This document shows, in pieces, positions 2,680-34,314 of a stretch of DNA of 64,000 nt. The stretch comes from an uncultured Selenomonadales bacterium (GTDB lineage Bacteria > Bacillota > Negativicutes > Acidaminococcales > Acidaminococcaceae): NCBI GenBank assembly GCA_900315805.1, contig ONAN01000006.1, positions 1-64,000 on the forward strand, read 5' to 3'. Each line of letters begins with the position of its first letter. Position 1 is the stretch's first letter. The position numbers were made by a program, and so were the translations under genes. The notes beneath the pieces were generated by a model that was not told where the DNA came from, did not search any database, and saw only the letters and a list, made by a program, of their open reading frames with translations.

Positions 2680-3711
2680 ATGGGTATGAAGGACATGCTG
2701 CTCGAACTGCGCGAAAAGGCGCTGCAGGACATGCAGGCAGCAAAAGACTCCCAGGAACTGCAGGACCTGAAAGTCAAATATCTGGGCCGCAAGGGCCCGA
2801 TGACGGAAATTCTGCGCGGCATGGGCAAAGTGCCGGCAGCGGAACGGCCGAAGATCGGCGAAGTGGTGAACCAGGTCAAACAGACGCTGGAACAGACCAT
2901 CAAGGACCGGGCGGAAATCCTGAAACAGGAAGCCCTGAAGGCCAAAATCGAGCACGACAAGGTGGACATCACCCTGCCGGGCCGCAAACCGGCCTGCGGC
3001 CATCTGCATCCGCTGACCCTGACGGCACGCGAAATCAAGCGCATCTTCATGCACATGGGCTTCGACGTCATCGAAGGACCGGAAATCGACAATGACTACT
3101 TCAATTTCGAAGCGTTGAACCTGCCCAAGGACCATCCGGCCCGCGATATGCAGGACACGTTCTACATTACGGACAACTACCTGCTGCGCACGCAGACATC
3201 CGGTGTCCAGGCCCGCACCATGCAGGCCCATGAGCCGAACACGCCGATCCGCATGATTTCCCCCGGCGCCGTGTACCGCAATGACTACGACGCCACCCAT
3301 TCGCCCATGTTCCACCAGGTCGAAGGCCTCGTCGTGGACCGCAACATCAGCCTGGCCGACCTGAAGGGCACGCTGGAACTGTTCTGCCGCGAAATGTTCG
3401 GCGACGACGTCAAGATCCGCCTGCGCCCGAGCTACTTCCCCTTCACGGAACCTTCGTGCGAAGTCGATATTTCCTGCGTCATCTGCGGCGGCAAAGGCTG
3501 CAACGTCTGCAAACATTCGGGCTGGCTCGAAATCCTCGGCGCCGGCGAAGTACATCCGAACGTGCTGAAGATGAGCGGCTACGATCCCTCCATCATGAAT
3601 GGGTATGCTTTCGGCATGGGCATCGAACGCATCGCCATGCTGAAATACGGCATCGATGACCTGCGGCTGTTCTTCGAGAACGACCTGCGTTTCATCCGTC
3701 AGTTCAGATAA
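2680..3711 (+). CDS. pheS: Phenylalanine--tRNA ligase alpha subunit
   Basis: The catalytic alpha subunit of the alpha2beta2 PheRS, charging tRNA-Phe with Phe. The first 90 residues form the tRNA-binding coiled coil (LLELREKALQDMQAAKDSQE). The class II core follows, with motif 2 around YRNDYDATHSPMFHQVEGLV and motif 3 FGMGIERIAMLKYGIDDLR near the C-terminus. Length 343 is standard. ATG 2680 follows AGGAGGTAATGTC. It is controlled by the Phe T-box and followed after 14 bases by pheT. Confidence 0.98.
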   Translation: MGMKDMLLELREKALQDMQAAKDSQELQDLKVKYLGRKGPMTEILRGMGKVPAAERPKIGEVVNQVKQTLEQTIKDRAEILKQEALKAKIEHDKVDITLPGRKPACGHLHPLTLTAREIKRIFMHMGFDVIEGPEIDNDYFNFEALNLPKDHPARDMQDTFYITDNYLLRTQTSGVQARTMQAHEPNTPIRMISPGAVYRNDYDATHSPMFHQVEGLVVDRNISLADLKGTLELFCREMFGDDVKIRLRPSYFPFTEPSCEVDISCVICGGKGCNVCKHSGWLEILGAGEVHPNVLKMSGYDPSIMNGYAFGMGIERIAMLKYGIDDLRLFFENDLRFIRQFR

Positions 3712-3725
3712 GGGAGGATTAAAAA

Positions 3726-6161
3726 ATGTTAGTATCGATTGAATGGTTGAAGAAATATGTCGATTTCGACATCACTCCCGAAGAACTGGCCGATAAACTG
3801 ACCCACGTCGGCCTCGAAGTGGAAAGCGTCATTCATCTGGGAGCGGGGATTTCCGGCGTCCTGACCGGCAAAGTGACGGCCATCGAACGGAATCCGAAAT
3901 CGGATCACCTGTGGGTCTGCCAGATGGACTACGGCTCCGGTGAAATCGTCCAGATCGAGACCGGCGCCCAGAACGTCAAACTGGGCGATATGGTGCCCGT
4001 GGCGACCGTCGGTGCCACCCTGCCCAACGGCATGAAGCTGAAACCCGTGAAGATGGCAGGCCTGGAATCCTTCGGCATGCTCTGCAGCGCCCAGGAACTG
4101 GGCATCGACTCCAAGCTGCTCCTGCCGGAACAGCGCGAAGGCATCCTCATCCTGCCGCCGGATACGCCCATCGGCAAAGATATCCGCGAAGTGCTGGGCC
4201 TCACCGACACCGTGCTGGACATCGACCTGACGGCCAACAAGCAGGACTGCTTCTGCATGACCGGCGTAGCCCGCGAAGCGGCCGCCGTGTTAGGGAAAAA
4301 GATGCAGCTGCCCGACATGTCCGTCAAAGAAAACGACGGCCGGGACATCACCGGCATGATGCGGAACGAAATCGAAGTGCCCGAACTGTGCAGCCGTTTT
4401 GCCAACCGCATCATCACGGACATCAAGATCATGCCGTCCCCGGAATGGATGCAGAATGAACTGCGTGCGGTCAGCATCCGCCCCATCAACAACGTCGTCG
4501 ACGTGACGAACTATGTCATGATGGAGCTGGGCCAGCCCATGCACGCGTATGATTACGACACGCTGAAAGACCACGCCCTCATCGTCCGCCGTGCCAAAGC
4601 CGGGGAAAAGCTGACCACCCTGGACGGCAAGGAACGCGACCTGACGCCGGACATGATCGTCATCGCCGACACGGAAAAAGCCGTCGGCCTGGGCGGTGTC
4701 ATGGGCGGTCTGCAGACGGAAGTCACGGACAAGACGCAGACCGTCATCCTGGAAGCGGCCACCTTCAACGGCCCCTCCATCCGCCATACCTCCAAGGCCC
4801 TGGGCCTGCGCAGCGAAGCGTCCATGCGCTTTGAACGCGGCGTCGACACGGGTCATACGTGGTATGCCCTGGACCGCGCCGTCCACCTGCTGGAAGAAAT
4901 GGGCGCCTGCAAGAGCGTCAAAGGCATCTGCGAATCCTATCCCGTACCGTTCGTACCGACGGTGCTGGACATTTCGCCGGCTGCCATGAACACCCGCATC
5001 GGCGTGGAAATTCCCGTTGCGGAAATGGTCTCCATCTTACGGAGCCTGGAATTCGAAGTGGAAGAAGAGAAGGACGGGAACCTGAAGGTCACCGTGCCGT
5101 CCTGGCGCAGCGACGTGACCTGCGACGCGGATATTTCCGAAGAAATCGCCCGCATGCATTCCTACGACAAGATTGAATCCCATAATCCGATGCTGGCCAT
5201 GAAGGAAGGCCGCGAAGACCCCATGGAGACGGTCAAGGACGGCGTGCAGGATTACCTGGCGTCGGCCGGCCTGGACGAAGTCCAGAACTACACCTTCATC
5301 CATCCGTCCTTCATGGACAAAATGATGCTGCCGCCTGACGACGCGCGCCGCAAAGCCATCCGCCTGATGAACCCCATCAGCGACGAATTCAGCACCATGC
5401 GCACGACCATGCTGCCGGGCATGCTGGCCACGGCGGCCTACAACCTGGCACGCCAGGCCGAAAGCGTCAAGATTTTCGAGACGGGCCGCATCTACCTGCC
5501 CAAGAATCTGCCCCTGACGGAACATCCGGAAGAACGGCAGATGATCGGGGCCGTCATGACGGGCCGCCGCGACGACCTGAACTGGACGAGCGGCAAGGAC
5601 AACGTCGACTTCTTCGATATGAAGGGCGTTGTGGAAGGCCTTTTGGAATCGGTACACCTGACGGGGTACGAGCTGGTTCCCTGCACGGAACCGTACATGC
5701 ATCCCGGCAAGAGCTGCGCAGTCCTCGCGGACGGCAAGGCCATCGGCTATTTCGGCTGCCTGCATCCGACGGCGGCCGCCAACTTCAACGTCAACGAAGA
5801 GACCTACGTGCTGGAAATGGAACTGGCTCCGCTGGCGAAGGCCGCCGGGACGGTGCCGCAGTACACGCACCTGGCCAAGTTCCCCGGCATGAGCCGCGAT
5901 ATCGCCGTCGTCGTGCCGGATACGGTGTCCATGAAGGAACTGGAAGGCGTCATCCGCGCCAATGCGGGCGATTTGCTGCGCCAGGTCCGCGTCTTCGACG
6001 TGTACACGGGCAAGCAGGTTGACAAGGGCAGCAAGTCCGTCGCCTTCAACCTGACCTTCCGGGCCGACGACCGCACGCTGACCGATGCGGAAATCGACGC
6101 CATCATGAAGACCGTCGTGAACAATGTGCAGGAGACCTACAAGGCACAACTGCGTAAATAA
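3726..6161 (+). CDS. pheT: Phenylalanine--tRNA ligase beta subunit
   Basis: The 811-residue beta subunit completes PheRS. It starts MLVSIEWLKKYVDFDITPEE and contains an EMAP/OB-type tRNA-binding domain (about 40-150). The B3/B4 editing region, where mischarged Tyr is removed, and a B5 domain follow (RPINNVVDVTNYVMMELGQP lies in the former). A C-terminal ferredoxin-fold anticodon-binding domain covers roughly 715-810 (KFPGMSRDIAVVVP). Length is normal. GGGAGG precedes ATG. The gap to the next gene is 33 bases with no obvious terminator, so read-through is possible. Confidence 0.98.
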   Translation: MLVSIEWLKKYVDFDITPEELADKLTHVGLEVESVIHLGAGISGVLTGKVTAIERNPKSDHLWVCQMDYGSGEIVQIETGAQNVKLGDMVPVATVGATLPNGMKLKPVKMAGLESFGMLCSAQELGIDSKLLLPEQREGILILPPDTPIGKDIREVLGLTDTVLDIDLTANKQDCFCMTGVAREAAAVLGKKMQLPDMSVKENDGRDITGMMRNEIEVPELCSRFANRIITDIKIMPSPEWMQNELRAVSIRPINNVVDVTNYVMMELGQPMHAYDYDTLKDHALIVRRAKAGEKLTTLDGKERDLTPDMIVIADTEKAVGLGGVMGGLQTEVTDKTQTVILEAATFNGPSIRHTSKALGLRSEASMRFERGVDTGHTWYALDRAVHLLEEMGACKSVKGICESYPVPFVPTVLDISPAAMNTRIGVEIPVAEMVSILRSLEFEVEEEKDGNLKVTVPSWRSDVTCDADISEEIARMHSYDKIESHNPMLAMKEGREDPMETVKDGVQDYLASAGLDEVQNYTFIHPSFMDKMMLPPDDARRKAIRLMNPISDEFSTMRTTMLPGMLATAAYNLARQAESVKIFETGRIYLPKNLPLTEHPEERQMIGAVMTGRRDDLNWTSGKDNVDFFDMKGVVEGLLESVHLTGYELVPCTEPYMHPGKSCAVLADGKAIGYFGCLHPTAAANFNVNEETYVLEMELAPLAKAAGTVPQYTHLAKFPGMSRDIAVVVPDTVSMKELEGVIRANAGDLLRQVRVFDVYTGKQVDKGSKSVAFNLTFRADDRTLTDAEIDAIMKTVVNNVQETYKAQLRK

Positions 6162-6194
6162 AGAGAATTCAGTTTGTGATACACAGAGGCGCAC

Positions 6195-7079
6195 ATGAAG
6201 ATAATAGACGCGCATATGCATTATTTTAAGGTCGAGGGGTTTGACCAGCTGGCAGCCCTGTCGGGACACGAAAATTCCCGCGCGGGCTGGCAGCAGATCT
6301 GCGAAGAAAACAACATCGTCTTTTCCGTGGCCATGGGGAACAGTTACGACGCACCGAGCCGCTTCGGCGGCGTGGCGCCGCGGCTGATCGACCTGGGTTC
6401 CGCGGGCCGGCCTTTTTCCTGCGAACCCTACAACCAGGCACCCAACGTGGGCTACTGCCTGGGGGTGGAAAGCGAGCAGATCACGCCGGAAAACGCGGAT
6501 AAGACGGCCCGGGAATTCGAATGGTACCTGGAACACGATCCCCACTGCCTGGGCATCAAGTTCTACATGGGCTATGAGAACGTCTACCTGTACGACGAAC
6601 GGCACGAGCCGCTCTTCGAACTGGCGAAGGCCTATCATGTGCCCGTGGCCATGCATTCCGGCGAAACGGCGAACCATCACGGCCGCCTGCGCTACGCCCA
6701 CCCGCTGACGGTGGACGAAGCCGCCAGCCGCCATCCCGATGTCCAGTTCGTCATCTGCCATGTCGGCAATCCCTGGATTCCCGATGCCATCGAGGTCGCG
6801 GCGAAAAATGAAAACGTCGCCATCGACTTTTCCGGCCTGTGGGAATACCATCTCACGCCGGCCCGGGAGCAGTCCCTTGAAGCCTTCCAGAAGTACATCC
6901 GCATGTGGCTGGAGTACCAGGGCATCTGGGACCGCATCCTCTACGGCAGTGACTGGCCCCTCATCAACATTCCTGACAATATCCGCAACCTCGGACGGAT
7001 TGTGCCGGAGAAGCATTGGGAAGAGTTTTACTATCAGAACGCGCTCCGCGTATACGGGCGCATTGGAGATTTGCTTTGA
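6195..7079 (+). CDS. Amidohydrolase-2 family metal-dependent hydrolase
   Basis: A 294-residue TIM-barrel hydrolase of the amidohydrolase_2 (ACMSD-like) group. Visible metal-site residues are the N-terminal DAHMH (H7 and H9), H154 in AMHSGE, H189 in CHVGNPW, and D253 in YGSDWP. The substrate cannot be told from sequence; members decarboxylate or hydrolyse small carboxylated or cyclic compounds. No signal peptide, so cytosolic. Its TGA overlaps the ATG of the next membrane gene (TGATG), suggesting translational coupling with the Hyf-like cluster, though a functional link is not obvious. Confidence 0.82.
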   Translation: MKIIDAHMHYFKVEGFDQLAALSGHENSRAGWQQICEENNIVFSVAMGNSYDAPSRFGGVAPRLIDLGSAGRPFSCEPYNQAPNVGYCLGVESEQITPENADKTAREFEWYLEHDPHCLGIKFYMGYENVYLYDERHEPLFELAKAYHVPVAMHSGETANHHGRLRYAHPLTVDEAASRHPDVQFVICHVGNPWIPDAIEVAAKNENVAIDFSGLWEYHLTPAREQSLEAFQKYIRMWLEYQGIWDRILYGSDWPLINIPDNIRNLGRIVPEKHWEEFYYQNALRVYGRIGDLL

Positions 7080-7924
7080 TGAAACGGTTTTATGCGGCGC
7101 CCATCGTGTTCGTGGTGGGCGCCTGTGTTTTGTTCCTGACGGGCTGGGCCTTCACCTTTCAGGGAGGCCTGGTCCTGATGGCCTGCGGGCTGGTGGAGAC
7201 CCTGCTGTCGGCCCGCTCGCTCTGGCAGGCCGGGTGCCGCGGCGACGATAAAAGGTTCAGCGGTTCCGCGGCCCTGCAGGAGGCCGGTTACGCGATTACC
7301 GCAGCGGGCCTCGGCTGCCTGCTGCTCCAGTATCCCAACGCCGCCCTGCCTTTTGTCTGCTTTTCCGCGGCGGCCCTCTTCCTGGCCCAGCTGGTCCTGT
7401 CCCTGAGCGGCGTCGTCATCGCGACGTCCCGCGCGGGGTACCGCCTGGCCCTGTTCTGCCTGGCCGGCGTGCCCATGACCCTGGGCTTCGCAGGCCTCTG
7501 GCAGCTCTGCCAGGGAGCCCTGAGCCTGCCCATGGCGGAAGCCGCGGCCTGGGTGAAACCGCTCCTGGCCGTGCTGTTCGCGGTCCTGGGGCTGACCTGG
7601 GGACTGCGCCTGGGTGCCTGCGGCATGTATTACCGCGCCGTGTCGGCTGATGCGGAACGGGAAAAACCTCCCTTCCGCCTGGCCGAAGCCATGGCCCCCG
7701 TGGCGGACTTCGTCCTGGGCCTGTTCCCGATCCTGCTGGTGGCGCAGGCGGAACAGCTGCTGCTGAGCGCCCGCCTGCCTTTCCCCGTGGGGGACTTTAT
7801 GGGCCTCATCTGGGGCGGCACGGGACGTTACGCCATCTACAGCCCCCTCATCGTGGCCGTGCTGTTCTTCATGCTGCTGGCCGTCCTGGATGCCGTGTCC
7901 GGCAAAAGGAGGGCTGAATCATGA
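7079..7924 (+). CDS. Integral membrane protein resembling the C-terminal half of HyfB/NuoL-type antiporter subunits
   Basis: 281 residues, almost entirely hydrophobic, with about eight membrane segments. The stretch LFCLAGVPMTLGFAGLW resembles the SLLGLPPTAGF motif of NuoL/NuoM/HyfB. A later EAMAPVADFVLGLFPILL resembles the E-P-M...P end of that family. HyfB proteins are about 670 residues, so this would be a half-length relative. The ATG at 7079 overlaps the previous stop; an earlier in-frame start at 7016 lies inside the preceding gene and is less likely. It overlaps the next gene by ATGA. Assignment rests on weak motif resemblance plus B-C-E gene order. Confidence 0.5.
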   Translation: MKRFYAAPIVFVVGACVLFLTGWAFTFQGGLVLMACGLVETLLSARSLWQAGCRGDDKRFSGSAALQEAGYAITAAGLGCLLLQYPNAALPFVCFSAAALFLAQLVLSLSGVVIATSRAGYRLALFCLAGVPMTLGFAGLWQLCQGALSLPMAEAAAWVKPLLAVLFAVLGLTWGLRLGACGMYYRAVSADAEREKPPFRLAEAMAPVADFVLGLFPILLVAQAEQLLLSARLPFPVGDFMGLIWGGTGRYAIYSPLIVAVLFFMLLAVLDAVSGKRRAES

Positions 7925-8727
7925 AGTTCCTGATGATCAATATCGGCGTCGGTCTGGTACAGGCCGTGGCCCTGACCCTGGCGGCGCCGCTCCTTTTGGG
8001 CATCGTCTTCCGCCTGGCCCGCATCGGCCGGCCCGGTCCCGCCGACGGCCTGTTGTTCCTGTACGAACGGCTGGGAGCGGCACGCTTCCATAACCTGTCG
8101 CTGGGGCCGACGCTGGAATTCGTCTGCGTCTTCCTGGCGGCGTCCATGCTGCCGGGTTTCCTGGGAGCCAAGATCACCTTCGGCGATTTCCCCCTGCTGA
8201 CGGCCCTTTTGGGCATGGCTGCCCTGGCGGCCGCCCTGTACGGGGAAGAAGACGGCGGCAGCGGCGTGCCGCAGAAGCAGGTCCTGTTTGAGGCCGGCCT
8301 GTTCTGCGCGGCCCTGTTCCTCGCCATCGCCTGCCGCGGCTTCCATGCCATGTCGACCATGCTGCCTGACGCGGCTTTCCAGTTCCGCGGTACCTATCTG
8401 ACGGGCTACACGGAACTGGCCGCCCTCGGCTTTTTCAGCCTGCTCGCGGCGGAAGGGGAGGGCGCCCTGCGTTACTTTACGGGCACCCGGCCCGAAGCCA
8501 TGACGTTCTGGGGCGCCCTGGCCCGCCTGCTGCGGACCGTGGTCCTGCTCATGCTGTGTGCGGAACTGTTTCTGCCCGTGCCGCTGCCGTCGGGGCCGCG
8601 CGCCCTCGTGACGGCCGTCCTGCTCGCCGCGGTCCTGGCCGTCCTGGGTCATTTCCGGCTCTACGCCCGCCGCATCCTGCTGACGGCCGCGCCGGTGCTG
8701 CTGTTCCTGTCCATCCTGGCCCAGTGA
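7921..8727 (+). CDS. Membrane protein resembling HyfC/HycD (NuoH-like) hydrogenase membrane subunit
   Basis: 268 residues with about seven or eight membrane segments. The opening LTLAAPLLLGIVFRLARIG followed by RPGPADGLLFLYERLG resembles the HycD/HyfC N-terminus, in which a short GRRGP loop follows helix 1. The C-terminal ELAALGFFSLLAAEGEG to LLMLCAELFLP matches the helices of the NuoH family that end in LF-P. The PFD-type acidic loop usual for quinone or proton coupling is not visible. It overlaps the preceding gene by four bases (ATGA). No hydrogenase large or small subunit is nearby. Confidence 0.5.
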   Translation: MKFLMINIGVGLVQAVALTLAAPLLLGIVFRLARIGRPGPADGLLFLYERLGAARFHNLSLGPTLEFVCVFLAASMLPGFLGAKITFGDFPLLTALLGMAALAAALYGEEDGGSGVPQKQVLFEAGLFCAALFLAIACRGFHAMSTMLPDAAFQFRGTYLTGYTELAALGFFSLLAAEGEGALRYFTGTRPEAMTFWGALARLLRTVVLLMLCAELFLPVPLPSGPRALVTAVLLAAVLAVLGHFRLYARRILLTAAPVLLFLSILAQ

Positions 8728-8748
8728 AGCCCCTGCGCTGTCACAAAA

Positions 8749-8768
8749 AATCCGCCCCGGGGCGGATT
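8749..8768. repeat. Perfect 20-bp palindrome between the HyfC-like and HyfE-like genes
   Basis: AATCCGCCCC is followed immediately by its exact reverse complement, with no loop. A run of six A precedes it (8745-8750), so on the minus strand it would look like a hairpin plus T tract. On the plus strand there is no T tract. It may act as an operator or an mRNA-stability hairpin. Confidence 0.6.
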
Positions 8769-8787
8769 GCTTGAATGAGGAGTTGCA

Positions 8788-9291
8788 ATGGAATATCTCT
8801 TGATTTTATGGATGGTGGCGATTCTGGCGCAGACCCGCGCCGTGACGCCCCAAAAGATGCTGTACGCCTATGTGTTCCAGGTGGTGTGCCTGTTCTGGAA
8901 CTGCGTGTTCTTCCGCGCGCCCCAGGACCTGGCGTCCCTGAACATTTTTCCCTGGATGGGCGCCGCCCTGGTGCTCGTCTTCCTGGGACCGTTCCTGCTG
9001 TTCCTGATCCAGGTACGGCGGGAACAGGAGATCCGCAAGACGCCGGTGTTCCGGGCGAACCCCGTGTCCCTCGCGGCCGCCCTGGCCGCCGCGGTCTGCT
9101 ACGTGGCCCTCGACTGGAACCTGCCCTTCGCCATGGGCCGGGATTATCTGGCCTGCGCCGCGGCCCAGGCCCTGGCCGGCCTGCTGCTCCTGGTGCGGGC
9201 GCGGTCCCTTTCCGTGCGGCTTGCCGGACTGTTTTCCGTGCTCAACGGCATCCTGGTCTTCCTGTTTGTCTTCGGTGTCATTTCCCTCTGA
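8788..9291 (+). CDS. Membrane protein resembling HyfE hydrogenase-4 component
   Basis: 167 residues with about five or six membrane segments. The layout resembles HyfE, a NuoK-related subunit: a basic loop after a helix (PFLLFLIQVRREQEIRK) and, near the end, GLFSVLNGILVFLF in the place of the family's conserved ENG helix. The conserved Glu appears to be Leu here. HyfE of E. coli is about 216 residues, so this is shorter. ATG 8788 follows GAGGAG. Third gene of the B-C-E-like trio. Function is unproven, and proton-channel residues seem to be missing. Confidence 0.45.
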   Translation: MEYLLILWMVAILAQTRAVTPQKMLYAYVFQVVCLFWNCVFFRAPQDLASLNIFPWMGAALVLVFLGPFLLFLIQVRREQEIRKTPVFRANPVSLAAALAAAVCYVALDWNLPFAMGRDYLACAAAQALAGLLLLVRARSLSVRLAGLFSVLNGILVFLFVFGVISL

Positions 9292-9363
9292 GCATCAAAG
9301 TGACATCATACCGGGGTCACCTGGCGTTCTGCCGGACAGAAGGTGAACGGGGACCCCGAACCG

Positions 9364-9372
9364 TGTTATAAT
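9364..9372 (+). promoter_or_regulatory. Extended -10 promoter before the GTPase pair
   Basis: TG-T-TATAAT (TG 9364-9365, hexamer 9367-9372) is a perfect extended -10 about 90 bases before the first GTPase. No good -35 is seen, as expected for the extended class. The leader contains a GC-rich run (CCGCAACCGGCCGCGGCCGC). Confidence 0.55.
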
Positions 9373-9458
9373 AAGTTTATGGCAGTGGCGGAATTTTCCG
9401 CCGCAACCGGCCGCGGCCGCCGCGTAAAGGCCGCCAGTACCGCTGGTGGGGTGGAACG

Positions 9459-10595
9459 ATGATTACGGATAAAGTGAAACAGGAAACCGTCCTGAACCTG
9501 ATAGACAAACTGCAGTATTTCGATTATGACAAAGTGCTGGACCGTATCCGCAAAACCGTCAAGAAGCCGGGCATCCTGGTAGCCGGTGCGACCGGCGCCG
9601 GGAAATCGAGCCTGATCAATCACCTGTTCGGCATGGAGGTCGCCACGGAAGGCAGCGGCAAGCCCGTTACGGACCGCGTGACCCGCTACGAGCCTGAAAA
9701 GGTCGATGTGGTGCTCTACGATACGCGGGGCTATGAAATCGGCGACGAAAAGGCCCAGCAGTTCTACAAGGAAGTCGTCGGCTACGTGAAAGAAGCCAAT
9801 GAATCGAAGGATGTCAAAAACCACATCCATCTGGTCTGGTACTGCATTTCCGCGGCCAACAAGCGCGTGACGCCCATGGATCTGGACATCATCGCGTCCC
9901 TGCAGGGCTTGGCCAAAGTCTGCATCGTCCTTACGCAGATCGATACGGCGACGGTCGTGGAACTGAAGGAAATGCGCGACACCATCGCGAAAAAGCTGCC
10001 CGACATGCCGGCCTTCGGCGTCTCCATCGACCCGCGCGTGCCCGCAGAGTCCCAGGAATGGGACGAAATGCTCGACTGGTCCATGGACAACCTGGAAAGC
10101 GGCATGCAGCTGGCCCTCGCCCAGGCCCTGGGCAAGGAACTGCGCATCAAACGGATGCAGGCGGACAAACTGGTCCACCGCTACGTCATCGCGGCGGCCG
10201 GTGCCGTCGTCTGCCCGCTGCCCATGACCGATTCGGCCGTCCTCGTCGCCATCCAGACGACCATGGCCACGCACCTGTTCAATTTCTGGGGCATCGACCG
10301 CGGCACGGACAAGATCAAGGACGTCTTCGTCAACGTCGTCATCGCCAACACGGGCCGCGTCTTCTCCCGGTCGCTGCTGAAGATCATTCCCGGCGCCGGC
10401 ACCATGGCGTCGGCCGTCATCAACAGCGGCGTCGCGACGAGTTTCACCTACGCCTTCGGCCGCGCCGTCAACGAAGTCTGCTACAAGGCGGCGGCCAAAC
10501 TGGCGGCAGGCGATAAGATCGATTTCACGTCGGCCTTTGCCGTCGATGTGCTCATGAAGCTCGTCGACAAATACATGAAACGCAAGTCCAACTGA
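9459..10595 (+). CDS. GTPase with C-terminal DUF697-type membrane-associating domain
   Basis: 378 residues. An Era/HSR1-type GTPase domain opens the protein: P-loop GATGAGKSS (about 43-51), switch region with T before RVTRYEPEK, G3 DTRGYE, and G4 TQID. A helical domain follows, with a DUF697-like segment HRYVIAAAGAVVCPLPMTDS and a hydrophobic IIPGAGTMASAVINSGVATS, suggesting reversible membrane association. Such proteins are of unknown role, sometimes linked to envelope stress. ATG 9459 follows GGGTGG. The next gene is a second, divergent GTPase 10 bases downstream. Confidence 0.8.
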   Translation: MITDKVKQETVLNLIDKLQYFDYDKVLDRIRKTVKKPGILVAGATGAGKSSLINHLFGMEVATEGSGKPVTDRVTRYEPEKVDVVLYDTRGYEIGDEKAQQFYKEVVGYVKEANESKDVKNHIHLVWYCISAANKRVTPMDLDIIASLQGLAKVCIVLTQIDTATVVELKEMRDTIAKKLPDMPAFGVSIDPRVPAESQEWDEMLDWSMDNLESGMQLALAQALGKELRIKRMQADKLVHRYVIAAAGAVVCPLPMTDSAVLVAIQTTMATHLFNFWGIDRGTDKIKDVFVNVVIANTGRVFSRSLLKIIPGAGTMASAVINSGVATSFTYAFGRAVNEVCYKAAAKLAAGDKIDFTSAFAVDVLMKLVDKYMKRKSN

Positions 10596-10605
10596 GGCGC
10601 GGACG

Positions 10606-11814
10606 ATGTACCGTCCCGCCACGGACGCAAATTCAGGACATCATTCGGAGAACAATCGCATGAGGAACAACAGTTGGTCCCGCAAGGCAGCATGGAACCG
10701 CCGCGGTCCCGCGGAAACGGAAAAAGCGGCCGGTGCGGGCGTCAAGACAATCCCACAGCCCCTGCGCAAGGGGGACCTGGTGCGCAACATCCTCGTCCTC
10801 GGCAAGACCGGCGTGGGCAAGACATCGCTCCTGAACTACCTGTACGGCCTGGAACTGCCGGTCGGGGCGGGCCTGCCGAAAACGGGGAAGGGCATCCACG
10901 AGAACACCTTTGTGCGCGAAGGCGTTGCCTACCATATCTTCGACTCCTGGGGCCTGGAGGCCGACTCCCTGCCGGAGTGGCGCAAAGAGGTCCTGGCCCT
11001 GGTCGGGAAACGCAACACGTCGCCCCGCATGGACGAATGGTTCCACGCCGTCTATTACTGCTTTTCCGCCAATTCGGCCCGCATCGAGGACGTGGAGGTC
11101 GATGAAATCATCGTGCCCCTCCTCAAGATGGGCAGCAAGGTCCTTATCATCCTGACCAACGCCGAAGACGGGTTCCGTAAAAAGGAAAAAATAGAAGGTA
11201 TGCAGGCCTACCTGAAGGAAAAACTGGCGCAGGCCGTGCCGGGCGGCGCGGATACGCCGGTGATTCCCGTCGTTTCCGTGGCCGGGCAGACCCTGGCGGG
11301 AGACCCCATCACCCGCACAGGCCGTTCCGAAGTCCTGGCGGCGGCCTCGTACAGCCTGGCCGACGACATCCGCAAACGGGTGCCGGCCATCTACCGGGCC
11401 AATGTGCGCCGCAAGATCGAAGCCTGGAAGGAACGGAGCCTGATCCTCGTCCGGACCGGTAAAATCGATTTCTGGCTGAACAACAATTCGGCCCGGAAAC
11501 TCATCGACCTCGTCAATTACGACCTGCTCAACACCTTCAGCGCCATCGACGCCGACGGCGATCGGCTGGAAGCCGATGCCGACGCCTATCTGGCGGCCGG
11601 GCACGCGCCGGCCCTGGACAAGCGCTGGCGCCCGGATTTCCGCAAGGTGACCTTCGTCGGAGGGTACGAATACAGCAAAGGGACCGTTTCCACGGCCTTC
11701 GACCTGGTGGCCGGCCTCCTGCGTTCGGAAAAAGGCATCCGGGAAAACCTGGCCCAGCGGGTCGAACGGACGGCCCGCGTCATTCTCGCAAGCCTGGGAA
11801 AACCGCGGAACTGA
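10606..11814 (+). CDS. Second GTPase of the pair, no DUF697 seen
   Basis: 402 residues. After a basic N-terminus, the GTPase core shows P-loop VLGKTGVGKTSLLNYLYG, a switch Thr in KGIHENTF, a G3-like DSWGLE and a G4-like LTNAED (TNxxD). The DxWG form of G3 is unusual. About 180 C-terminal residues carry no motif I recognise and no clear membrane helix. ATG 10606 is used; ATG 10660 is an alternative with GGAG upstream. It lies 10 bases after a related GTPase and ends before a strong terminator, so the two form a two-gene operon and may be partners. Confidence 0.75.
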   Translation: MYRPATDANSGHHSENNRMRNNSWSRKAAWNRRGPAETEKAAGAGVKTIPQPLRKGDLVRNILVLGKTGVGKTSLLNYLYGLELPVGAGLPKTGKGIHENTFVREGVAYHIFDSWGLEADSLPEWRKEVLALVGKRNTSPRMDEWFHAVYYCFSANSARIEDVEVDEIIVPLLKMGSKVLIILTNAEDGFRKKEKIEGMQAYLKEKLAQAVPGGADTPVIPVVSVAGQTLAGDPITRTGRSEVLAAASYSLADDIRKRVPAIYRANVRRKIEAWKERSLILVRTGKIDFWLNNNSARKLIDLVNYDLLNTFSAIDADGDRLEADADAYLAAGHAPALDKRWRPDFRKVTFVGGYEYSKGTVSTAFDLVAGLLRSEKGIRENLAQRVERTARVILASLGKPRN

Positions 11815-11850
11815 AACAGAATACGGAACCGCCGCAGCGGCCTGGAATGC

Positions 11851-11896
11851 AAAAAACGCTGTTTCCGTGCATAGGCACGGGAACAGCGTTTTCGTT
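11851..11896. terminator. Bidirectional terminator between convergent units
   Basis: AAAACGCTGTTTCCGTGC (11853-11870), loop ATAG, then GCACGGGAACAGCGTTTT, with A and T tracts on both sides. It ends the plus-strand GTPase operon and the minus-strand ABC importer operon. Confidence 0.93.
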
Positions 11897-11930
11897 TTCT
11901 TAAGTGTGTTTTTTACGGCTGCCGGAGTCC

Positions 11931-12908
11931 TTATTTCACTTCGGCGAGCATGCTCTTGATATCGATCTTCTTTTTCTGCATGCCGTTGGCCATCAGGAAT
12001 TCCTGGGTCGCTTCCAGGTCCTTGATGTCCTTGTCCGTAATGGCCGTCGAGAAATCGTACCAGGGAGCCATGAGCTTGACATCGTCCGGCTGGAGGCCCG
12101 TCTCTTTGGCCGTGAACTCGTAGGCCTTGGCCTGCTGGTCCTTCATGAACTTCAGGTTTTCCTGATGGAGGGCCAGGTATTTTTTGACCACGTCGGGATG
12201 TTCCTTCAGGAACTTGCCGCTGACGCCGATGACGATGGTGGCATCCACGAGGCCTTCGCCGTTGGCGAGGACGCGGGCACCGGCACGCTGGGCGCGCAGG
12301 ACGTCGGCACCGGCCACGAGGGCCGCATCGGCTTCACCGGACAGGAGGGCGTTGACCGACGCCGGAATGCCGAGGGAACGGAACTGGACATCGTTCAGGG
12401 TCAGCTTTTCCTTGGCCAGGGCCGCTGCCAGGATCTGGTGCAGGATGGTGCCCTTGGGACCGACGACGCGCTTGCCCTTCAGGTCGGCGGCCGTCTTGAT
12501 GGACGGATCCTTGACCATGATGTTGAAGGCTTTCGGGGCGCGGCTGTAGATGCCGACGATTTTCACGTCGACGCCGTTCGAAGCGGCCAGGATGGCGCTC
12601 GTGCCGCCCAGGCAGCTGGCGATGTCCAGACTGCCGGCCGCCAGGGCTTCCGTCTGTTTGGCACCGCTCGTGATGACCGGGAAGGTGACCTTCGTGCCAT
12701 CTTTCTCAAAGCCTTTGACGGTCGTCTGGTTGAACTTGTCGACGATGCTGGGGATATTGAGGGGAGCCTTGACGTAGGTCACGCGCAGTTCCTTGACGGG
12801 CTGCGCCTTGGGGGCTTCCGCCTTCTTTTCGCCGCCGCCGCAGCCGGCGGTCAGCAGAAGGGCGCAGAGCGTGACGAGGCTCAGGAGTAAGGCAAAAAAC
12901 TTTTTCAT
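11931..12908 (-). CDS. ABC transporter substrate-binding lipoprotein, SsuA/NMT1 family
   Basis: A 325-residue extracytoplasmic solute-binding protein for an importer of the sulfonate/nitrate/taurine class. The start MKKFFALLLSLVTLCALLL leads to a lipobox TAGC, so it is lipid-anchored. The mature part contains GSLDIASCLGGTSAIL and the DLKGKRVVGPKGTILHQILAAAL pattern of NMT1-like proteins. The ligand cannot be assigned; alkanesulfonates are only one choice. The frame extends upstream to 13121, but the signal peptide and GGAG site fix the start at 12908. It is last in the operon after its ATPase and permease. Confidence 0.9.
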   Translation of the reverse strand: MKKFFALLLSLVTLCALLLTAGCGGGEKKAEAPKAQPVKELRVTYVKAPLNIPSIVDKFNQTTVKGFEKDGTKVTFPVITSGAKQTEALAAGSLDIASCLGGTSAILAASNGVDVKIVGIYSRAPKAFNIMVKDPSIKTAADLKGKRVVGPKGTILHQILAAALAKEKLTLNDVQFRSLGIPASVNALLSGEADAALVAGADVLRAQRAGARVLANGEGLVDATIVIGVSGKFLKEHPDVVKKYLALHQENLKFMKDQQAKAYEFTAKETGLQPDDVKLMAPWYDFSTAITDKDIKDLEATQEFLMANGMQKKKIDIKSMLAEVK

Positions 12909-12951
12909 GATGAGCTCCTTTCGGGAGATTGCAGGGCGGAAGAGGTGCGTA

Positions 12952-13695
12952 TCAGTCTTCGCCGCCGGACAGGATTTCCAGCATTTCCTGGCGCAGGGCC
13001 TGGAAGGCCGGATCCGTCGCTTTGCGGGGCCGGGGCAGGGGAATGGGCCTGTCGGCCTTGAGACCCGTCCCGTCGAGGACGACGATGCGGTCGCCCAGCA
13101 GCAGGGCTTCTTCCACATCATGGGTGACGAAGAGGATGGTCTTCTTTTCCGCGTTGAACAGCTGGAGCAGCATGTGCTGCAGGTTCCGCCGGGTAAAATA
13201 ATCGAGGGCGCTGAACGGTTCGTCCATGAGGATCAGGTCGGGACCGTAGAACAGCGTGCGCCCCAGGGACACGCGCTGGGCCATGCCGCCGGACAACTGG
13301 GCCGGATAGAGGCCGCCGTCGTGTTCCAGGCCGAGCTTTTGCAGCAGGCTGCGCACTTTCGGCTGGTTTTCGACGGATTTTGCGGAATGACTGTCCGGTA
13401 CATCGCCGCCCCAGAGGGTGGGGTCGTGGCGCGCCGCGAAGGCGATGTTCTGGGCCACGGTCAGCCAGGGCATGAGGCGCGGTTCCTGGAAGACCGGGGC
13501 GATGCGCCGGGGCAGGCCTTCCATGGAGCCTGTCGTCTTTTCCTCCAGACCGGCCAGCAGGCGCAGGAGCGTCGTTTTGCCGCAGCCGCTTTTGCCGACG
13601 ATGCACGTGAAGCTGTGTTCCGCGAAAGTCACGGAAATGGGGGCCAGGGCGGTTTTGGAGCCGTAGGTCTTGCCCAGGTCAGTGAGTCGGATCAT
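12952..13695 (-). CDS. ABC transporter ATPase, SsuB/TauB family
   Basis: A 247-residue cytoplasmic ATPase. Walker A GKSGCGKTTLLR, Q-loop around PVFQEPRLMPWLTV, signature LSGGMAQRVSLGR, Walker B LILMDEPFSALD and H-loop FVTHD are all intact. The QEPRLMPWLTV form is typical of the sulfonate/nitrate/taurine importers. It overlaps the upstream permease by 17 bases and precedes the binding protein by 43. ATG 13695 follows AAAGGAGG. Confidence 0.93.
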   Translation of the reverse strand: MIRLTDLGKTYGSKTALAPISVTFAEHSFTCIVGKSGCGKTTLLRLLAGLEEKTTGSMEGLPRRIAPVFQEPRLMPWLTVAQNIAFAARHDPTLWGGDVPDSHSAKSVENQPKVRSLLQKLGLEHDGGLYPAQLSGGMAQRVSLGRTLFYGPDLILMDEPFSALDYFTRRNLQHMLLQLFNAEKKTILFVTHDVEEALLLGDRIVVLDGTGLKADRPIPLPRPRKATDPAFQALRQEMLEILSGGED

Positions 13696-33309: not shown

Positions 33310-34314
33310 GCCGCAAACAAGGGGAACCAGTCCATCTCGGATTTGTCTATTACCGTGCTGGGTACGGATAACGATTACAGCGAGGCTACGAAACAAACCA
33401 CGATTCACGGCAAGGTGACAGCCATTACGAACCATACGGACAGTGACAGCCTCGACGTCAAAGGGGAGGACATCACGATAGACGGGACGGTCGGCGTGTA
33501 TGGAGATTCCTCTGAATCTAAAACAACGAAAGCCGCTATCGGGACAACGAACACCAAAAACGTCACCCTGAAGGACACCGTAACGGTGCAGAACAAAAAC
33601 GGGAAACTTACCCTCGACGGGCAGAACATTACGGCAGCAAAAGAAGTATCTGCCGGCAATGGTGCAGCCATGACAGTCGGTTCCGATGCGACCGGATCGG
33701 TTACGGGCACCTATCACGTCGACGGAACAGATTCCACCGTGACCGTTACGACCAACAATCTGGACGGAACGCTGACTACTTCTAACGGAGGGACGTTAAA
33801 GGCTGATGTTGCCCGGCGTTTTAACGGCACGACCCAGGCCGGCGGCAACAACATGACCGTGGGCACGTACAGCTTCGGCCTGTACGATACGCTCGTCCGT
33901 AACGACGGCCAGCACTGGGGCTTCAATTTCAAGTTCCAGCGCCTCAGCGATGACTTCCATTATACGGCGCTGAACCGCCGCAGCTCGGGCTCCGCCGATG
34001 CCACCGGTGTCACCTTCGGCGTGGAATACGGGTACAAACGCCGGACCGCGAAAGGCTGGTTTGCCGAACCGCAGGCCTTCGCCAAGGCAGACTGGTACCA
34101 CGACTTTGGCGGGCAGAACACGCTAGCCCTCACGACGACCCGCGATAACCTGCGCCTGCGAAGCGATTATGCTGACAACTGGTTCGAATACGGCCTCGGC
34201 CTGTCCTGGTCCCTCAACAAGGGGACGCAGTTCTATGCCGATGTGGACCGCGGCGACGGTTCCAGCTACGACAAAGACTGGTCGTGGAACGTCGGCATGC
34301 GGTACAGTTTCTGA
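33310..34314 (+). pseudogene. 5'-truncated autotransporter (passenger fragment plus beta-barrel)
   Basis: The frame opens at 33235 after a stop codon and continues to 34314. From about 33310 it reads as a passenger beta-helix (SAANKGNQSISDLSITVLGT, many short Thr/Asp/Gly repeats). The last 160 residues form an outer-membrane beta-barrel region (GFNFKFQRLSDDFHY to NVGMRYSF), ending in the C-terminal Phe used for Bam insertion. No signal peptide or good start with a ribosome site is present; TTG 33343 is the first possible. The barrel is also shorter than the usual 250-280 residues. It is most likely a remnant of a larger gene. It supports a diderm cell envelope. Confidence 0.72.

Follow-up and report, generated by a model that had tools for sequence, protein, structure and literature searches.

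A stripped Hyf-type membrane arm, probably kept as an ion-inert scaffold, in three related Negativicutes

Complex I and its relatives are viewed as coupled machines whose membrane arm is there to move ions. What, then, does a pump become once its engine is lost? This question is raised by a locus of an uncultured Selenomonadales bacterium (G000; 2,014,448 bases in 48 contigs), in which three consecutive membrane genes resemble part of a hydrogenase 4 (Hyf) operon. A first-pass annotation, made from the DNA alone, had proposed that these genes encode a repurposed ion pump, a degraded complex, or a new module coupled to the amidohydrolase encoded upstream. Here, we describe a comparative analysis of this trio, which lies in a stretch of 64,000 nucleotides (the window). 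Our literature searches brought up no description of a reduced Hyf-type arm of this kind. We present evidence that the trio is the remnant of a Hyf-type [NiFe]-hydrogenase operon, stripped and still under selection, that has probably been exapted as an ion-inert membrane scaffold with a new role.

The locus and the kinship of its three membrane genes

The trio consists of unbroken open reading frames, all on the plus strand and in the order hyfB-hyfC-hyfE, here termed B' (P0001), C' (P0002) and E' (P0003). Upstream on the same strand lie two genes at 2680..6161 that we take to be pheS (2680-3711) and pheT (3726-6161), followed by the gene for an amidohydrolase-2 family metal-dependent hydrolase (P0004, 294 aa; 6195..7079, plus strand; Pfam PF04909, E 1.5e-28). 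In the sequence TGATG the stop codon of the amidohydrolase gene and the start codon of B' overlap, and the coordinates imply the same overlap in two relatives that bear the trio, isolate RUG237 (an uncultured Selenomonadales bacterium of the class Negativicutes; G053, locus L021), whose trio is closely related, and G050 (locus L022). B' (281 aa; 7079..7924) in turn overlaps C' (268 aa; 7921..8727) by ATGA, and E' (167 aa; 8788..9291) follows after a gap (8728-8787). This gap contains an inverted repeat, ATCCGCCCCGGGGCGGAT, which is preceded by an A run and nearly kept in L021; it could be a minus-strand terminator or attenuator before E'. Two GTPase genes identified by Pfam and tblastn, the first with a DUF697 domain (9459-10595 and 10606-11814, plus strand), close the locus (9459..11814). 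A promoter-like TTATAAT upstream of the first of them (within 9292-9458), kept in L021, suggests that the GTPases form a transcription unit separate from the trio.

Searches of general databases reveal little about the trio. Pfam returned no relevant match for B', C' or E', and PDB sequence searches with C' and with profiles of all three proteins returned none either. In NCBIfam, E' matched the hydrogenase 4 membrane subunit PRK11492 below the cut-off (E 5.5e-5; 23.1 versus 136 bits), B' had a sub-threshold match to NADH dehydrogenase subunit M (E 0.0085), and nothing relevant was found for C'. The empty Pfam and PDB results are in keeping with the trio being an unrelated membrane family, Hyf-like only through its hydrophobic composition. 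This explanation is hardly credible, given that each protein matches only its own Hyf subunit, in hyf order and at a hyf place. Using hhalign, alignments of the three trio species were compared with alignments of intact Hyf proteins of the same family. B', a reduced HyfB, aligned with about residues 272-545 of intact HyfB (probability 97.7%, E 2.1e-12); the HyfC/NuoH-like C' with HyfC end to end (99.1%, E 6.1e-19) minus the ND1 (PFD-type) loop; and the HyfE-like E' with columns 9-168 of the HyfE profile (97.0%, E 9.2e-11), its last transmembrane segment being absent. All 42 mismatched or control comparisons, which included wrong subunits, single-sequence E. coli Hyf subunits, EchA/EchB-like, MrpD-like and unrelated membrane proteins, gave 5.7% or less. 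The comparison thus confirms, at the level of sequence profiles, that C' and E' are homologous to HyfC and HyfE, and B' to the C-terminal half of HyfB. Accordingly, the likeness that the first-pass annotation had noticed stands, as do the hyf gene order, evident from the positions of the reading frames, and the half length of the HyfB-like protein, which represents the C-terminal half; neither a match to an unrelated family nor a lack of Hyf likeness emerged.

Single E. coli HyfB, HyfC and HyfE sequences gave no significant match to the trio (0.2, 0.6 and 5.7%). Since these E. coli proteins are genuinely homologous to the intact family proteins and yet fail against the trio, the kinship is visible only through family intermediates. 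Phylogenetic trees placed the trio weakly among the family proteins for C' and E'; in the HyfB tree, which long branches distort, it did not fall inside the family. The stem branch of the trio is very long, at 3.8-8.3 changes per site. Two-row alignments of C' and B' gave AlphaFold2 models of low confidence (mean pLDDT 43.5 and 43.8), too poor to bear on the fold.

Intact operons and three states of the locus

When the 59 genomes of the family were searched with C', 18 gave a match, and three of these belong to the trio's own genus. Regions were taken from 16 of these 18; one is the G050 trio, and the 15 others comprise 13 complete hyfB-C-E-F-G-I operons and two that are cut by contig ends. 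The intact proteins were identified as Hyf by NCBIfam, by Pfam and by BLAST comparison with the hyf operon of E. coli, with identities over the aligned parts of 36% (B), 37% (C), 34% (E), 43% (F), 35% (G) and 36% (I). All 13 complete operons are without hyfD. The earlier statement that no HyfD or hydrogenase lies near the trio is true, but the absence of HyfD is no loss peculiar to the trio, because the intact operons of the family share it. The family HyfI carries a fused ferredoxin-like N-terminus. HyfG of the family (for example at 6144-7646 of locus L034) keeps both cysteine pairs; its first motif, CGACSxAN, and its last, ELCYACxDR, are unlike the motifs usual for group 4 enzymes.

Two intact operons occupy the same place as the trio: G011 and G032 have the arrangement pheS-pheT-amidohydrolase-hyfBCEFGI. 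In G021 the arrangement is pheS-pheT-hyfBCEFGI, with no amidohydrolase, so that pheS-pheT is the syntenic anchor common to the intact operons of these three genomes. The remaining fetched operons have neither pheT nor the amidohydrolase beside hyf, although some of the regions end nearby. The D-less operons, those of G011 and G032 among them, contain homologous B, C and E genes in the same order as the window; in comparison with them the window lacks F, G and I, its B is halved, and its ion-path residues and docking loops are lost.

The reduced state, pheS-pheT-amidohydrolase-B'-C'-E'-GTPase-GTPase, is found in G000, G053 and G050. In four other members of the genus (G045, G048, G051 and G056) tblastn finds the amidohydrolase followed directly by the two GTPases. 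Of the 14 genus genomes 3 have the trio, which was not found elsewhere among 380 genomes of the class; it is known from three related species only, every one represented by an assembly in many contigs. A B' profile matched 48 of the 380 class genomes, namely the three with the trio and 45 in which the match lies in a long HyfB frame (556-708 aa), with the single exception of a 297-aa frame near a contig start. A C' profile matched 19 of 63 genomes of the order, three of which are those of the trio. The arm is seen in three states (intact, stripped and absent), and two of these share a single syntenic position. With such a series one can ask how much of the fold is purely structural.

The amidohydrolase is more widespread. 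It occurs in 12 of the 14 genus genomes, nine of which have no detectable trio; beyond the loci described above, the genus copies have neither trio nor GTPases adjoining them within the extent of the contigs retrieved. In an amidohydrolase tree the three trio species are grouped (99/99), and the genus is not resolved. The amidohydrolase-B-C-E order is kept in the three trio species and, in intact form, in G011 and G032; G021 lacks the amidohydrolase, and four relatives lack the trio.

Ion path, docking loops and missing partners

Proton-path residues, and the loops by which the soluble arm is joined to the membrane arm, are named in the report on the E. coli formate hydrogenlyase (FHL) structure (PMC9474812). 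Residues listed there were mapped onto the trio through alignments to HycC and HycD of E. coli. None of the 14 mapped HycC positions is kept, and B' does not carry the proton-path TM5 Glu, TM7/TM8 Lys, TM11 His/Lys and TM12 Glu. The intact HyfBs of the family keep most of these positions, with Glu135, His222, His328, His332, Lys336, Glu391 and Cys537 present in 12 of 12. Of the 10 mapped HycD positions, all three trio species retain a single one, Glu206, and two of the three also have Glu189; the intact HyfCs of the family themselves deviate at two of the 10, having Asp and His in place of Glu199 and Glu201. The ND1 (PFD-type) loop is deleted in the alignment of C', as the first-pass annotation had noted for the HyfC-like protein. 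B' has neither the N-terminal half nor the C-terminal ND3-like extension. In E', the Glu of the MENG motif is Leu in the window and in L021, a substitution that had also been noticed earlier and is real; G050 is likewise without this Glu, and E' is without the last predicted membrane segment. By way of the family intermediates the trio belongs to the same subunit families as the arm of E. coli hydrogenase 4 and the HycC/HycD arm of FHL-1; measured against these systems, it lacks the catalytic and electron-transfer subunits, the ND1 and ND3 loops and the E-channel (PMC9474812).

These losses bear on the possibility that the trio still translocates or conducts ions, through a new path or with a new soluble partner. 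Descent from an ion-pumping arm speaks for such a module, and a number of charged residues stay invariant in the predicted membrane segments (K84, E124, E215 and R246 of C', K160 of B' and R137 of E'). However, the known path is altered or missing at all 14 HycC positions and at nearly all of the 10 HycD positions, both docking loops are gone, and a possible partner, an Mrp cluster, also occurs in 17 genomes of other genera that have no trio. We regard an ion-moving module as distinctly unlikely. The idea of a repurposed ion pump of known type in particular finds no support, because every mapped proton-path residue of B, and nearly every one of C, is gone.

Partners of the Hyf type are missing as well. 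None of hyfD, hyfF, hyfG and hyfI adjoins the trio; no hyfI was found beside it in L021 and L022 by tblastn, nor around it in the window's list of open reading frames. No HyfG large subunit is encoded at the locus, and the only match in the genome is a short, Ech-like one on contig C23 (model positions 142-501). PF00361, the domain expected of HyfF, has four matches in the genome, three in the Mrp cluster and one in an Ech-like cluster. By these tests the trio is not a member of Hyf, and its sequences indicate that it is derived from Hyf.

Two other clusters of the genome belong to the same superfamily. One, at about 7736-12687 of locus L088 (G000:C23:112001-131142), we take to be an Ech-like hydrogenase from its gene sizes and order; its short HyfG match adjoins a long antiporter-like gene. 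Across the family, the HyfG profile matches 35 of 59 genomes, 18 over its full length (E 4e-248 or better) and 17 with a short match from about model position 143 onwards (best E 1.2e-59). Full Hyf and the large subunit of the Ech-like kind hardly ever occur together, G033 having a full match plus a fragment of the short kind. The short kind is present in 13 of 14 genus genomes, the exception being G050. As a partner of the trio, the Ech-like hydrogenase is not supported; 11 of its 13 carriers in the genus are without the trio, and it was not found in the trio-bearing G050 (89% complete). Its membrane arm, like the trio, is of the complex I superfamily and includes antiporter-like and HyfC-like subunits, but the Ech-like cluster is full-length and has its large subunit, and the trio shows no profile similarity to its EchA/EchB-like proteins.

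The other cluster, at about 5555-13117 of locus L085 (G000:C17:54001-74000), is presumably an Mrp-type antiporter, judging from its gene order; it has three antiporter-like subunits (PF00361) of the superfamily to which HyfB belongs. Within the genus its carriers are precisely the three trio species, a pattern that had suggested a partner; its third subunit is present in 20 of 59 family genomes, 17 of them of other genera and without the trio. Its PF00361 domains are intact. A partnership of Mrp with the trio was dropped because the distribution of Mrp is independent of that of the trio.

Selection and the present role of the trio

The trio genes are under purifying selection, with weaker constraint than in intact Hyf. 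Pairwise dN/dS (Nei-Gojobori) ranges from 0.10 to 0.30 for the trio as a whole (0.19-0.24 for B', 0.10-0.24 for C' and 0.15-0.30 for E'), with upper confidence limits below 0.5. Between the window and L021 the values are 0.23 (0.14-0.34) for B', 0.10 (0.05-0.17) for C' and 0.15 (0.07-0.25) for E'; between the window and L022, where dS exceeds 1, they are 0.24, 0.24 and 0.30. In the same comparisons the neighbouring genes give 0.09-0.15 (pheT), 0.04-0.09 (amidohydrolase) and 0.11-0.22 (GTPases), and intact hyfB, hyfC and hyfE in two other species pairs give 0.02-0.07. Nucleotide differences within the trio genes concentrate at third codon positions (27/12/58, 14/7/60 and 11/7/39). Ratios in the other sense frames exceed 1.4; the antisense -2 frame has low values (0.22-0.33) yet contains stops.

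A decaying leftover that is slowly turning into pseudogenes, with no selected function, would account for the large past losses, the very long stem branch, the weaker constraint and the absence of the trio from the locus in four genus members. We consider this unlikely in view of dN/dS values that are low up to their confidence limits and of frames that run without stops in three species, down to 56-67% identity, with indels of whole codons only; neither broken frames nor dN/dS near 1 were found. The suggestion of a merely degrading complex is likewise unsupported, because frames and substitution ratios show purifying selection. Since ion-path residues and docking loops are lost and dN/dS is nonetheless 0.10-0.30, the trio is unlikely to be either a working pump or a pseudogene; more probably it is an ion-inert membrane scaffold in a new, presumably non-bioenergetic, role. 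A complex that has shed its catalytic half and kept its membrane core for another use fits best.

On this preferred reading, the ancestor would have been a Hyf-type [NiFe]-hydrogenase operon behind pheS-pheT-amidohydrolase. Comparison with the intact operons shows that this sub-clade lost hyfF, hyfG and hyfI, that HyfB was cut to its C-terminal half, and that residues of the ion path and the docking loops disappeared from HyfC and HyfE. In the E. coli structure report, HycC Glu391 lies on TMH12, about 4 Å from Tyr102 of HycD (PMC9474812); B' keeps the half of HyfB whose TM12 faces the HyfC homologue in that structure, and B' and C' may therefore still form a membrane assembly. The product would be a small scaffold with the co-translated amidohydrolase as its putative peripheral partner. 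This coupling is weakly suggested by the overlapping frames, kept in all three trio species. The amidohydrolase does not need the trio, since nine genus genomes have it with no detectable trio, and coupling, if there is any, would be confined to this sub-clade. More speculatively, the stripped arm might be a stable non-pumping module that serves the soluble amidohydrolase as a membrane anchor or substrate port. Such a use of a complex I-superfamily fold is not reported among the papers that our searches brought up.

A membrane arm stripped of nearly everything known to be needed for ion movement, and still selected, is of interest beyond this locus, in that its retained residues constitute a natural experiment separating scaffold from channel. 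Elsewhere in the window, the translation of an open reading frame at 33670-34314 starts with a stretch rich in Thr, Gly and Val, and may belong to a surface or repeat protein.
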